Origin: an uncultured Erysipelotrichaceae bacterium
Lineage (GTDB): Bacteria > Bacillota_I > Bacilli_A > Erysipelotrichales > Coprobacillaceae
Length of the DNA stretch: 36,177 nt
Reading direction: 5' to 3'
Assembly: GCA_951801965.1 (NCBI GenBank)
Contig: CATOPA010000003.1
Coordinates: 1 to 36,177 of the forward strand
Below, piece after piece: positions 6,534-22,256 of this stretch. Every line of letters begins with the position of its first letter. Position 1 is the stretch's first letter. The notes below the pieces were generated by a model. It saw only the letters and a list, made by a program, of their open reading frames with translations. It was not told the origin of the DNA and made no database searches. The position numbers were made by a program, and so were the translations under genes.

Positions 6534-6663
6534 AAAAAAAGCTTTCAAGAGGAAAGCTTTGTTTCCTCTTATTGTTCAAGTAAACTTGCTAGGTAAAGGC
6601 ACCTTCTTATCTAAAGGGTTGCCACCACTTCATCGATCCTCATCTCATGGTTCTAAATAAGAG
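6534..6663 (-). promoter_or_regulatory. SAM-I (S-box) riboswitch with attenuator, controlling metK
   Basis: Minus-strand aptamer closed by P1 strands CTCTTATT (6656-6663) and AATAAGAG (6566-6573). Conserved core elements are visible in order: GATGAAG, GGCAACC, AAGGTGCC and CTAGCAAG. Downstream, AAAGCTTTC (6552-6560) and GAAAGCTTT (6538-6546) form a terminator followed by a T-run. The alternative antiterminator pairs AAGAGGAAA, which uses the 3' strand of P1, with TTTCCTCTT. SAM binding should stabilise P1, free the terminator and switch metK off. Confidence 0.95.
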
Positions 6664-9547: not shown

Positions 9548-9623
9548 GGAGGTTTAGCTCAGTTGGGAGAGCATCTGCCTTACAAGCAGAGGGTCAGCGG
9601 TTCGAGCCCGTTAACCTCCACCA
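9548..9623 (+). tRNA. tRNA-Val (anticodon TAC)
   Basis: 76-nt cloverleaf. Acceptor GGAGGTT pairs with AACCTCC, anticodon loop CTTACAA gives TAC, T-arm GGTTCGAGCC is present and CCA is encoded. First gene of the seven-tRNA array. Confidence 0.95.
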
Positions 9624-9624
9624 T

Positions 9625-9700
<76 letters not shown>

Positions 9701-9704
9701 TGCT

Positions 9705-9788
9705 GGGGAGGTAGCGAAGTGGCTAAACGCGGCTGACTGTAACTCAGTTCCTTTCGGTTCGGTGGTTCGAATCCGCCCCTCCCCACCA
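9705..9788 (+). tRNA. tRNA-Tyr (anticodon GTA)
   Basis: 84-nt class II tRNA. Acceptor GGGGAGG pairs with CCTCCCC, loop CTGTAAC gives anticodon GTA, and the long variable arm (TTCCTTTCGGTTC region) is as expected for bacterial tRNA-Tyr. CCA is encoded. Confidence 0.95.
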
Positions 9789-9796
9789 TTTTTTAT

Positions 9797-9872
9797 TGGG
9801 ATATAGCCAAGCGGTAAGGCAACAGACTTTGACTCTGTCATTTCCCTGGTTCGAATCCAGGTATCCCAGCCA
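9797..9872 (+). tRNA. tRNA-Gln (anticodon TTG)
   Basis: Acceptor TGGGATA pairs with TATCCCA, starting with the U-A first pair typical of tRNA-Gln. Loop CTTTGAC gives anticodon TTG. CCA is encoded. Confidence 0.95.
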
Positions 9873-9876
9873 TTTT

Positions 9877-9952
9877 GACCCGCTAGCTCAGTAGGTAGAG
9901 CATCTGACTTTTAATCAGAGGGTCAGGCGTTCGAGTCGCCTGCGGGTCACCA
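9877..9952 (+). tRNA. tRNA-Lys (anticodon TTT)
   Basis: Acceptor GACCCGC pairs with GCGGGTC. Loop CTTTTAA gives anticodon TTT. CCA is encoded. Confidence 0.95.
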
Positions 9953-9960
9953 TTCTTTTT

Positions 9961-10034
9961 GCGGGTGTAGTTCAATGGTAGAACTTCAGCCTTCCAAGCT
10001 GACTACGTGGGTTCGATTCCCATCACCCGCTCCA
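9961..10034 (+). tRNA. tRNA-Gly (anticodon TCC), copy 1
   Basis: 74-nt tRNA. Acceptor GCGGGTG pairs with CACCCGC, loop CTTCCAA gives anticodon TCC, and CCA is encoded. Identical in sequence to the next gene. Confidence 0.95.
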
Positions 10035-10055
10035 TTTAAAATCAAATATCCCTAT

Positions 10056-10129
10056 GCGGGTGTAGTTCAATGGTAGAACTTCAGCCTTCCAAGCTGACTA
10101 CGTGGGTTCGATTCCCATCACCCGCTCCA
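10056..10129 (+). tRNA. tRNA-Gly (anticodon TCC), copy 2
   Basis: Exact 74-nt duplicate of the previous tRNA-Gly, separated by 21 bp. The flanks differ, so only the tRNA itself is repeated. Confidence 0.95.
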
Positions 10130-17551: not shown

Positions 17552-18733
17552 TTAAACTAACTCATCAAAATAATGATTCTCTAACATTTTTTTAATATAA
17601 AATGCTAACATATATGGCATCTTTTCTTCAAAAGTAACCAAATCATTTCCAATTAATTCTTTAATCTTCCCTAAACGATATTGAATTGTGTTACGATGCA
17701 TATAAAGTTCTTTAGACATTGTTTGTTGATGGGCATCATACTTTAAATAATAATACAATGTTTTTTCTAGTTCTCCATGATGTTTTTGATCATACTTTAT
17801 CAGCGGATTAAGCAAACGATCATGAATCTGCTTTAAAACCTGTTTATCTTCAATTAAAAATAAAATTTGATAAACTCCCATCTCTTCAAAAGAAATCACA
17901 GGATACTGAAAAAGAATAGCCATATTTACTGCAGCCAGCGCACGTTTATAACTTAATATAACATTTCTAAAATCTTTCATTCTTGTTCCTATGCCTAAAT
18001 GAATCAAGTGTCCAACGATTCTCTTTTTTGCACGCTGATACATGTTTTCAACAATAACATTCAATTCTTCTTCATCTAAGTTATTCACAATCATAACAAA
18101 ATGACCGTCAAACCAAAAAAAGCTATATGCGCATTCAACCTTTTCAAAACATAACTCTATTTGAAATGAGATTCTTCTTCTTTCAATTGTATCAAATAAA
18201 TCTGCATTCTCTATTCCTATTAATAAAACTTGAAAGTATCCATCAACATCAAATGTACTCATCAATTGTTGCCTTGAATCTTCAAGATGTTGAACATTCA
18301 TAAAGACATTTTTAAAATATTTAGAAATTTGTCTATCTTCTTTTTCTGAACTTAGACATCTCATACTAAAGTCTTTAATCAAATCTGCCATATGAACTTC
18401 CCATGGAGTTATCAATAATGGAAAATCTTGTTCATTGCAATAATCAATAATATCTTGAGAAATATCAAAAATATACTTTCCTGTATTAATAATTAATCCT
18501 ACACTATGGTAACGAACAAGGCACTCAATAAATTTTTTAAGTGCTTCAGAGGTTGGAAATCCAAGTCCAGTTGTGACTGCGAGCTCTTTTCCCCACAATT
18601 GTTTAATAATGGTTGTATCTTCTATCATATGTACCCAACTCATTGCATTTCCACAACCATTTTTACCAGCTAATAGTGTTAATTTATACTGCTGTCCAGT
18701 TTGAAGTAATGCATCTTCTATTGTAAATCCCAT
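17552..18733 (-). CDS. PucR-family transcriptional regulator
   Basis: 393-aa regulator. The N-terminal PucR sensory domain (about 5-125) includes GCGNAMSWVHMIEDT and GKELAVTTGLGFP, a middle GGDEF-like/CdaR-type region follows, and the C-terminal HTH_30 has KELYMHRNTIQYRLGKIKELIG. PucR-type proteins control purine, amino-acid or other nitrogen catabolism in response to small molecules; the effector is unknown. ATG at 18733 follows AGAGGTGAT. A GTG three codons upstream is less likely since it falls inside that site. It is divergent from an orphan 41-aa ORF, a natural candidate target, and heads the minus-strand series towards 14.8 kb. Confidence 0.88.
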   Translation of the reverse strand: MGFTIEDALLQTGQQYKLTLLAGKNGCGNAMSWVHMIEDTTIIKQLWGKELAVTTGLGFPTSEALKKFIECLVRYHSVGLIINTGKYIFDISQDIIDYCNEQDFPLLITPWEVHMADLIKDFSMRCLSSEKEDRQISKYFKNVFMNVQHLEDSRQQLMSTFDVDGYFQVLLIGIENADLFDTIERRRISFQIELCFEKVECAYSFFWFDGHFVMIVNNLDEEELNVIVENMYQRAKKRIVGHLIHLGIGTRMKDFRNVILSYKRALAAVNMAILFQYPVISFEEMGVYQILFLIEDKQVLKQIHDRLLNPLIKYDQKHHGELEKTLYYYLKYDAHQQTMSKELYMHRNTIQYRLGKIKELIGNDLVTFEEKMPYMLAFYIKKMLENHYFDELV

Positions 18734-18839
18734 TTCGATCACCTCTTTTTCTCATATTATATCACGTCTTTGTTCATAATGCACAAATGTATACATTTTT
18801 TTTATTTGTTTTGTCTCTAGGATTATTTATCTATTTATA

Positions 18840-18845
18840 TATAAT
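18840..18845 (+). promoter_or_regulatory. Possible -10 box for the 41-aa ORF
   Basis: TATAAT 41 bp before the ATG at 18887. No -35 hexamer occurs at normal distance (TTGTCT is 23 bp away), which would fit an activator-dependent promoter. This is speculative. Confidence 0.4.
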
Positions 18846-18886
18846 AGAAGTGTATTCAAGATAAAATAAAAAAAGGAGATAACCCC

Positions 18887-19012
18887 ATGAATTTAAACCT
18901 GCAATTTTTTCTAGAAAAGTATGATAATCCTACCCCATCATGGATTTCATCAGAACGTTATTCATACTGTGAAAATTTTTATCGTTTCCTTTCATTTTTC
19001 AAAAAGAAATAA
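18887..19012 (+). CDS. Orphan 41-aa small protein
   Basis: 41-codon ORF with an excellent ribosome site (AAAAGGAGAT) six bases before ATG, an upstream TATAAT and a downstream hairpin: a complete small transcription unit between two minus-strand genes. The peptide begins MNLNLQFFLEKYDNPTP, has one Cys, is rich in aromatic residues (five Phe in the last twelve or so) and ends in FFKKK, so it might associate with membranes or another protein. No signal peptide is clear. I do not recognise a family. It is divergent from the PucR-type regulator. Confidence 0.65.
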   Translation: MNLNLQFFLEKYDNPTPSWISSERYSYCENFYRFLSFFKKK

Positions 19013-19015
19013 ATC

Positions 19016-19061
19016 TATAGTGAAAGCAGATCTCTCCCCATTTTGATCTGCTTTTACTATA
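19016..19061 (+). terminator. Hairpin after the 41-aa ORF
   Basis: Arms 19016-19032 and 19045-19061 pair at 17 positions with one G-U on the plus-strand RNA, and the loop is 12 nt. There is only a short T-run (TTTT) inside the 3' arm, so release efficiency is uncertain. It starts 3 nt after the stop. Confidence 0.6.
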
Positions 19062-19062
19062 C

Positions 19063-19100
19063 AAAAAAGAAGAAAAGCATAAGTTTTCACCTATGCTTTA
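19063..19100 (-). terminator. Terminator of the GH16 gene
   Basis: Minus-strand arms AAAGCATA and TATGCTTT surround a roughly 10-nt loop, then TTCTTCTTTTTT. It overlaps the stop codon at 19098-19100. Confidence 0.75.
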
Positions 19101-22100
19101 TTCTTCTTTTTTTCTTTTAATAAATAGTAGATACAATCCTCCAAACAAAATGAATCCACATACCCCTATCATCATGATATTCATTGTTCCTGATGTTTTC
19201 TTCACCCCAGCTTGTGGTGTTCGAGTATCTTCCACCTTTGTTTCTCCTGGTGCTTTGTTTTCTTCTTCAGGGTCTTGAGTATCTGTTACATCTTCTTCTG
19301 GTCTTTCTTCTATTGAAGCATTAGCTTCTGGTTCATTTGGTCTTGTTGGCTGCATTGGTCTATTTGGCACTGCTGGCTGTGGAGCAACTGGCGTCGGTTC
19401 CACTGGTTTTGGATCAGTTGGTGCTGGTTCTACTGGCTCAGGATCAATAATGACTGGTTTTTCCTTCAATCCTTCAATAGCTTCTAAGATTGCCTTTGCC
19501 ATTGCATCAACCTTACCTTGTTGAGTAATATCTAATCCTTTAACAACTGCTGCAACAGCATCATTTAATGTTTTGATTGTTTCATCAGTATATTGATTTA
19601 AATCATTTGGAATTTTAGAAATTACTTCATCTACCTTGCTGTAATCTGCCTTTTTATAAACGAGAGATTTGATTGCATCTTCAATAGCCAGTGTATAACA
19701 ATCTATATCATCTTGAGATAATAATTCTAATTCAGGTATAGTAACATGTATTGCTTCTTTCAAAGCGTGAACTGTATCAAATGTATATAAAGATTCATTT
19801 TCCAAAATCTTTTCTGCCTCTTCAACGAATGTATTAAATGAAGAAAAATTAATCACTTCAACTTGAAGATCAACTTCTTTTCTTACTCCATTTTTTTCAA
19901 ATACTGATACATATGTCTGATGATTATTTAATAAGAGAGTAGGATCTTTCCAACTCCATCCTTCTGGCAATGTTATCGTTGATAATTTATTACCTTGAAT
20001 ACCTTTCAACATCCAATCAGATGGAAATACTCTTTCTTCTACTGTCAACAATACTGTTTTTCTAGCAAATTGATAACTTTGAGCTGTATCAACTTTTCCA
20101 TTAGTATAACGAATATCATCATCAATTGCTGAATAATGAAGATGATACACTCCTGGTTTCAGTGTAGCTAAAGCAGATAAATCATCCTTACCTTTGCAAA
20201 GAAGACTCACACTTGTTAATCCACCTGTATTTTTAAACATTGGACCATCTTCAATAGAATAATCAACATGATAACCTTCACTCACTTCTATATCTTTAAC
20301 AAGATCTGGTGTGTCTCCTTCTACCATTGTTATATCTTTTAAACCTGTCATATGCGGTGCAGAATCATAATAAGCTTTTGCGTCAGCTTTTTGTTGTTGA
20401 TTTTGTGCATAGTAAACATAATCAATGACAAACTCTGTTCCAGCTAAATTGGTACCAGCATCACCTGGCCAATTTCCACCCATTGCTAAATTCATTTGTA
20501 TATATTGTGGACGATTTAATGCCTTTTGAGCAATAACATTTTTAGCAATTGATGTATCACTATAATCTGCAACACAAACAATTTTGTCATCGACGTACCA
20601 TTCTACTCTATTTTCTGACCAATCAATACCAAAAATATGATAGTCATCATAAAAATCTTCGCTAATTGTATAACCTTGTCCTGCTAACTTTCCATTATCT
20701 TCATGAATACCATCGTCTGTATGAATAGTTTGCCATACAGTTTTATTTCCTTGACCACTTTCTGTTCCTGTCAATTCCATAATATCAATTTCACCACAAC
20801 GTGCCCATCCATATCCCTGTTTAGAATCTATATGACCATCTAAGACAAAGTCAGCACCCAAAGTCCAAAACGCTGGAAATACACCTTTTCCCTTTGGTAA
20901 TTTCGCCTTCATTTCAATTCTTCCATATAAGAATTCATACTTTCCATGAGTCCTTACACTTCCTGAATTGTATATAACATTTCTGTTCCCTCTAGGATTT
21001 TTATACTGATCTTCTAGAGCACGATCAGTTGCTTTTAAAACAAGCTTTCCATCTCTTAAGAAAACATTTTCTTCACTATTAACGTAATGTTGCTGTTCTA
21101 CTCCTCGAATACATCCAAGTTCATAACCCCACTTAGATGCATCTAATGTATTTCCTTGAAAATCATCAGCCCAAATCATTTCATAGTCGCCACTATCATC
21201 TGTTTCACTAACAACCTCATACAATGACACATCATCTACATAAACTTGAGATTGCCATACTGAATCAGAAGAACTATCACTCCATTTCATTGCACATAAA
21301 GCAACTTCTGTATAATTCCCACTATTAAATGATAATTCTACATCTTGATAAACCCATGCTTGATCACATCTTACTGTTTTTTCAGCCTGTGGATGAATAA
21401 GTGTAGAAACATCTTTTGTTTTAACATTAAAAAACATATAGGCATCTGTTGATCCAAGTAATACTTTTGCTTTCGCAACATAATCAGTATTTGGTTTTAA
21501 ATGAACAACTTGATAAACACAAGCATTATTTGACTGTGATGGTAATAATCCACACCACTCACCATTAGCAGCAGCACCTTGATAATTTGTAAACGTTCCA
21601 GTCCCTGTTGTCTGCCAACTTGTATGTCCATTCTCAAAACCACCATCTTCAATTAAATTAACAGAAGATTCTTTAACACTTACACAATCAATATATGCTG
21701 GTGATGCATAAGCAACATTTGATGAATCTTCAACCCATTTTACCAATTCAATAAGTGCATATGAATGTTCTCCACTGTTAAATGTTTGTTCAACGCGTTC
21801 CCACTCATCTCCACCAACAAGAATATCAAACTGTGGTGTTCCACTATTGCTCTTTAATTGATTTTCTGTTCCTACACGCACACAGAAATTCACTTTCGCA
21901 TCTGTATGTTCAGTTTTCACATATGCTGATACTGTATATTCTGTATTTGGTTTTACACTAATAATTTGTCCAATATAAGAATTGCCGTTATTTGCAGGCA
22001 ACATTCCCGCATGTGTTCCCTTGCCATAACTTTGACTCGTTGATATGGATTTTGTAGCTGTCCCTTGATCCCAAGCTAATCCACCTTTTTCAAAGTCTCC

Positions 22101-22256
22101 ATCTTCAATCAGCTCAATTTTTTGTCCCCTATTTAATTCTACTAAGTCATACTCAGTATTAAGTTCATTTGCCTTAACTTCTTGAGCGTGAATTGTCAAT
22201 GTAGAAAAAATCATCATTAAAGAAATTATTGTTTTTACTAATTTTTGCTTTCCCAT
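19098..22256 (-). CDS. Secreted, surface-anchored GH16 endo-beta-glucanase (laminarinase-like)
   Basis: 1052-aa multidomain enzyme. It has a signal peptide (residues 1-29, TIISLMMIFSTLTIHAQ core); two CBM4/9-type carbohydrate-binding modules (about 48-197 and 200-347, each starting LIEDGxFExG); a GH16 catalytic domain (about 355-635) with the active-site motif GEIDIMELTG (nucleophile near E489, acid/base near E494); a region of about 120 residues of unknown fold; two FIVAR-like helical repeats (about 795-925); a Pro-rich linker (EPVEPAPTDPKPVEPTPVAP); then a C-terminal membrane span and RKKEE tail. The likely substrate is beta-1,3- or mixed-linked glucan. Before the span lies TPQAG where LPxTG is expected. 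It is monocistronic, with promoter, cre site and terminator. Confidence 0.9.
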   Translation of the reverse strand: MGKQKLVKTIISLMMIFSTLTIHAQEVKANELNTEYDLVELNRGQKIELIEDGDFEKGGLAWDQGTATKSISTSQSYGKGTHAGMLPANNGNSYIGQIISVKPNTEYTVSAYVKTEHTDAKVNFCVRVGTENQLKSNSGTPQFDILVGGDEWERVEQTFNSGEHSYALIELVKWVEDSSNVAYASPAYIDCVSVKESSVNLIEDGGFENGHTSWQTTGTGTFTNYQGAAANGEWCGLLPSQSNNACVYQVVHLKPNTDYVAKAKVLLGSTDAYMFFNVKTKDVSTLIHPQAEKTVRCDQAWVYQDVELSFNSGNYTEVALCAMKWSDSSSDSVWQSQVYVDDVSLYEVVSETDDSGDYEMIWADDFQGNTLDASKWGYELGCIRGVEQQHYVNSEENVFLRDGKLVLKATDRALEDQYKNPRGNRNVIYNSGSVRTHGKYEFLYGRIEMKAKLPKGKGVFPAFWTLGADFVLDGHIDSKQGYGWARCGEIDIMELTGTESGQGNKTVWQTIHTDDGIHEDNGKLAGQGYTISEDFYDDYHIFGIDWSENRVEWYVDDKIVCVADYSDTSIAKNVIAQKALNRPQYIQMNLAMGGNWPGDAGTNLAGTEFVIDYVYYAQNQQQKADAKAYYDSAPHMTGLKDITMVEGDTPDLVKDIEVSEGYHVDYSIEDGPMFKNTGGLTSVSLLCKGKDDLSALATLKPGVYHLHYSAIDDDIRYTNGKVDTAQSYQFARKTVLLTVEERVFPSDWMLKGIQGNKLSTITLPEGWSWKDPTLLLNNHQTYVSVFEKNGVRKEVDLQVEVINFSSFNTFVEEAEKILENESLYTFDTVHALKEAIHVTIPELELLSQDDIDCYTLAIEDAIKSLVYKKADYSKVDEVISKIPNDLNQYTDETIKTLNDAVAAVVKGLDITQQGKVDAMAKAILEAIEGLKEKPVIIDPEPVEPAPTDPKPVEPTPVAPQPAVPNRPMQPTRPNEPEANASIEERPEEDVTDTQDPEEENKAPGETKVEDTRTPQAGVKKTSGTMNIMMIGVCGFILFGGLYLLFIKRKKEE

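Follow-up and report, generated by a model that had tools for sequence, protein, structure and literature searches.

PucR-type regulators are known as switches that turn on catabolic enzymes, and those that have been characterised respond to small molecules. Among the short RNAs of Firmicutes, SR1/SR1P and RNAIII/delta-haemolysin combine a small peptide with base pairing. In the SgrR-SgrS/SgrT system of enteric bacteria, the RNA encodes a 43-aa peptide, and Yersinia keeps the RNA without the peptide (PMC4021124). RoxS and FsrA are known to pair with ribosome-binding sites through C-rich loops (PMC10433868). Characterised PucR-type regulators are mostly activators; AdeR, PutR and GabR bind inverted repeats of 17-24 bp, and B. 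subtilis PucR binds a non-palindromic site (PMC7652997).

The locus described here lies in the window, by which we mean the whole stretch of 36,177 nucleotides that was analysed, and by analogy its nearest working parallel would be SgrR-SgrS/SgrT. As in that system, where SgrR is a metabolite-stress regulator, a dedicated regulator adjoins a short peptide-coding RNA with a conserved intergenic promoter, and in some species the locus has the RNA but not the peptide. The module is nevertheless not a member of the SgrR system because its regulator belongs to a different family, PucR/HTH_30; the host phylum also differs, the peptide has no convincing Pfam or NCBIfam match, and base pairing of the kind carried out by SgrS is suggested here in some genera only. 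The locus also resembles GabR, AdeR and PutR in that a PucR-family regulator is found with an inverted repeat, the putative operator, at the target promoter, but those regulators control catabolic enzymes, whereas the only constant target here is a small peptide gene. Several predicted single-stranded C-rich stretches in an RNA of genus g8 recall RoxS and FsrA of Bacillus; unlike these, the RNA has no Rfam match, its promoter control is different, and most loci encode a peptide. The regulators of SR1/SR1P and RNAIII/delta-haemolysin are different, and no Pfam, NCBIfam or Rfam match was found for the module.

We consider it probable that the locus is a two-gene response circuit in which PucR represses itself and activates the peptide gene as essentially its sole output, with the peptide acting intracellularly. 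PucR would be a cytosolic small-molecule sensor that is activated by a metabolite and binds a 19-bp palindrome lying between both genes; there it would cover its own -35, leading to self-repression, and, from about -74 relative to the peptide start site, would activate a promoter that has no -35 box. The output would be a short monocistronic RNA encoding a peptide of 41-50 aa, which would bind an enzyme or a membrane transporter inside the cell and modulate it in the manner of SgrT; C-rich stretches in the RNA of some lineages may also base-pair with ribosome-binding sites. The features of the source unit are as follows.

17552..18733, minus strand: PucR-type regulator gene, 393 aa from its likely start ATG 18733, with PF07905, GGDEF-like and HTH_30 domains.
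18756..18761, minus strand: pucR -10 (TATAAT), in the layout TTGTGC-19 bp-TATAAT.
18781..18786, minus strand: pucR -35-like TTGTGC, within the palindrome.
18769..18787, strandless: putative operator palindrome TTTGTTCATAATGCACAAA, 13/14 against TTTGTGC-N5-GCACAAA.
18812..18819, plus strand: TGTCTCTA element, directly 5' of the peptide -35 region and partly conserved in the family.
18840..18845, plus strand: peptide -10 (TATAAT), no -35, palindrome centre 62 bp away.
18873..18879, plus strand: ribosome-binding site AAGGAGA, 7 nt before ATG 18887.
18887..19012, plus strand: 41-aa peptide ORF MNLNLQFFLEKYDNPTPSWISSERYSYCENFYRFLSFFKKK, with homologues and protein-level selection.
19016..19061, plus strand: 17-bp hairpin at the transcript end, 94% complementary, with the 12-nt loop TCTCCCCATTTT.
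19063..19112, strandless: second hairpin and T-run, located where the peptide and GH16 genes converge.

Most of this unit had been described in the sequence-only reading, and the 41-aa ORF, the good ribosome site and the TATAAT without a proper -35 all stand, the promoter scan pairing no -35 with the TATAAT. The 17-bp hairpin is likewise present, but on the plus strand no U-run follows it and a TTTT lies inside the stem. The second hairpin scored as a terminator on the minus strand, for the converging GH16 gene, and may be a bidirectional terminator. That gene (19098-22256, minus strand) encodes a large GH16 glycosidase with CBM_4_9 domains and an apparent C-terminal membrane anchor. Leader-peptide attenuation was considered and rejected, since downstream of the peptide gene the next gene in the window runs towards it. 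The divergent gene had been called a PucR regulator, and domain searches bear this out: the matches to PucR (PF07905; 85.4 bits, E 4.8e-24) and HTH_30 (51.3 bits, E 9.9e-14) are both above the curated cut-offs, with GGDEF_2 at E 3.5e-5, and the protein has the N-terminal PucR domain and C-terminal HTH_30 domain by which the family is recognised. Its start is likely ATG 18733 rather than GTG 18742, because the AGAGGTG ribosome site goes with ATG 18733.

The sequence-only reading had also called the peptide an orphan matching no known family, and held that absence of the frame from close relatives would count against it. The frame is present in close relatives, and we found no convincing match to the peptide in Pfam, NCBIfam, PHROGs or the PDB, and nothing on it in literature searches; in one respect the word orphan does not fit, since the peptide belongs to a small family, confined to one order as far as the sampled genomes were searched. 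A single-sequence search with the 41-aa peptide already matches many same-family genomes (best E 1.9e-7). A profile of 22 sequences matches 22 same-family genomes with E-values of 1e-16 to 5e-24, which these builders of the profile reach by construction. It also matches three genomes that were not among the builders, all from one genus in a second family of the same order, with E-values of 4e-12 to 4e-6. Counting three genomes of genus g8 with a divergent 50-aa copy, 25 of the 43 same-family genomes encode the peptide, and carriers include Longibaculum muris, Thomasclavelia cocleata and Candidatus Stoquefichus massiliensis. The plasmids and phages searched contained no match, and sampled genomes, 395 from the class and 392 from the phylum, yielded no member outside the family. 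A weak match in G026 (L051, E 0.007) was rejected because that genome has no PucR orthologue and there is no palindrome upstream of the match.

Members of the family are 41-50 aa long and share the core P-x-W-x3-E-x-Y-x2-C; M1, P17, W19, E23, Y25 and C28 never vary in the first 22 sequences and are nearly invariant overall, with conservation highest across residues 17-31. The pooled pN/pS is 0.22, dN is below dS in every close pair compared, and codon position 3 holds 135 of the 240 differences among close pairs; by these sequence comparisons, the gene is real, it is under purifying selection at the protein level, and its family is undescribed until now. The peptide has no signal sequence, and its C-terminal segment is basic and amphipathic in most members (moment 0.5-0.76). 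AlphaFold gives a low-confidence model of two helices (mean pLDDT 62, pTM 0.25), in which the C-terminal helix reaches a pLDDT of about 75. Because it combines the lack of a signal sequence with a fixed aromatic-acidic-cysteine core and a basic amphipathic tail, the peptide would suit a partner-binding role, perhaps at the membrane surface.

The only constant neighbour of the peptide gene is the divergent pucR gene. In gene maps of 19 regions, pucR adjoins the peptide gene in all but one, which is a second peptide copy in G041, and the adjoining PucR orthologues in relatives are mostly 55-79% identical. Strong PucR orthologues occur in 25 of the 43 same-family genomes, the same genomes that have the peptide including the diverged g8 copy, an agreement that is inflated by shared ancestry. 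In G001 (L111), pucR is read as two overlapping frames, through either a frameshift or an assembly error. The other neighbours differ between genera and include PadR modules, PEPCK, a helicase and a flavin oxidoreductase, among others. In genus g8 an ATP-dependent PEP carboxykinase gene lies directly downstream of the module (L093, L114, L123).

An element absent from the sequence-only reading ties the two genes together. The palindrome TTTGTGC-N5-GCACAAA, exact or with 1-2 mismatches, lies upstream of the peptide gene at all loci; the window's copy, at 18769-18787, has one mismatch, and none of 5000 first-order resamples of the upstream region matched it. Its centre lies 62-63 bp from the TATAAT in 27 of the 27 peptide loci examined, across two families, and likewise at four g8 promoters without a peptide; the 5' leader, from -10 to ATG, varies from 38 to 77 nt over the same 27 loci. 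On the opposite strand the palindrome overlaps the pucR -35, a role that its TTGTGC half can fill; this half lies 18-19 bp from a -10 in the window, and about half of the listed loci have a similar layout. An activator that sits at about -74 and represses its own gene would be expected to show this geometry. The earlier suggestion that the neighbouring regulator activates the peptide gene probably holds, the fixed distance between operator and -10 and the co-occurrence of the genes arguing strongly for it. A TGTCYCTA-like / GACCCT element (18812-18819 in the window) is conserved in part of the family and not in the second family.

The window's genome has no second site with 0-1 mismatch, and G000, G036, G042, G033 and G016 have exactly one such site each, a single perfect one in the complete genomes G036 and G042; several other perfect palindrome-core sites, in G027 and G030-G033, lie inside ORFs and were set aside, an inspection that did not extend to the sites in G025, G026, G035, G040 and G041. 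Extra peptide copies distant from pucR retain both palindrome and spacing, which fits control in trans. In G036 a palindrome with the same core, GTTGTGC-N5-GCACAAC (L100:4294-4312), separates the gene of another HTH_30 regulator from an NADH:flavin oxidoreductase gene, which suggests an operator type common to this regulator group. From this palindrome, the adjacency, the co-occurrence and the operator-keeping copies elsewhere, we infer that PucR is the binder, though the palindrome could instead serve a different regulator with control over both genes.

Three species of genus g8 have, behind the promoter and palindrome on the pucR side, a region of about 158 nt without a credible ORF (L093:4960-5117, L095, L098 and L097). 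This RNA folds better than its shuffles (z -4.9), with predicted single-stranded C-rich regions, and four CCC motifs are invariant among its four copies; covariation could be judged from four sequences with two changed pairs, and Rfam gave no match, a loose threshold returning sub-threshold matches only. One orphan copy, in G012 at another locus without pucR, is 83% identical to the G011 query and retains all four CCC motifs. The g8 RNA seems to derive from the peptide mRNA, because its 3' part matches the sequence directly behind the peptide's stop codon in two sister species whose locus has kept the peptide. In the g8 species the diverged peptide of 50 aa is encoded at another place, divergently from a MetE-like (Meth_synt_2) gene (L094, L096, L099), and has its own copy of the palindrome at 63 bp spacing.

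Since the promoter at the pucR locus appears to drive a structured non-coding RNA in three species, some lineages may use a dual-function RNA, a possibility that goes further than the sequence-only reading. In its general form, one PucR-controlled RNA would carry both the peptide and C-rich seeds, and in some lineages the two functions would have come to lie at different loci, each behind this operator; we regard this as a possible reading, but a tentative one. Genera g11 and g15 also have C-rich hairpin loops, as does the window, in whose transcript the loop is the only C-rich region that is clearly exposed. Otherwise, few terminator loops contain CCC. Most g20 and g19 loci, and nearly all g2 loci examined, lack C-rich stretches, which are therefore not a universal function. 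A base-pairing function is plausible for the C-rich lineages only.

The remaining readings concern what the peptide does. It might be made under stress and be membrane-active through its amphipathic C-terminal helix, either as a self-directed toxin or in the manner of a phenol-soluble modulin, and both the basic amphipathic segment of most members and the predicted helix agree with this. However, neither an antisense nor an antitoxin gene consistently adjoins the peptide gene, and the conserved P, W, E, Y and C lie mostly before the tail, which points to a specific partner; we consider membrane activity unlikely.

The pairing of regulator and peptide around a common control region would also suit a peptide quorum circuit, in which the peptide is processed and exported as an intercellular, autoinducing signal sensed by PucR. 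The lack of a signal sequence argues against export, the strongest conservation, at residues 17-31, is not limited to a terminal pheromone, no exporter or peptidase is seen as a constant neighbour, and the PucR-type regulators characterised so far respond to small molecules; such a circuit is quite unlikely.

It is just as doubtful that the transcript is mainly a regulatory RNA with C-rich seeds to which the peptide is secondary. The g8 loci, which keep promoter and palindrome with a well-folded RNA and its invariant CCC motifs, the orphan copy that retains these motifs and the rarity of CCC terminator loops elsewhere speak for it, but the pN/pS indicates selection on the peptide, many loci have no C-rich stretches, and the g8 species retain the peptide elsewhere behind the same type of promoter. 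That the ORF, short and without a family match, is a chance intergenic frame is refuted by its cross-genus homologues, protein-level selection and constant promoter.

In the two-gene circuit that we favour, the sole conserved output of a PucR-type regulator would be a tiny peptide and, in places, an RNA. If true, gut bacteria would have in this circuit a Gram-positive counterpart of the stress response run by SgrR-SgrS/SgrT. Direct tests are possible with the operator, spacing and peptide core exactly defined, and the g8 loci offer a natural experiment that separates the function of the peptide from that of the RNA.

Elsewhere in the window, a SAM riboswitch (6566-6663, minus strand) lies 5' of a 393-aa ORF, and seven tRNA genes are clustered at 9548-10129, including two tRNA-Gly genes with the same anticodon.
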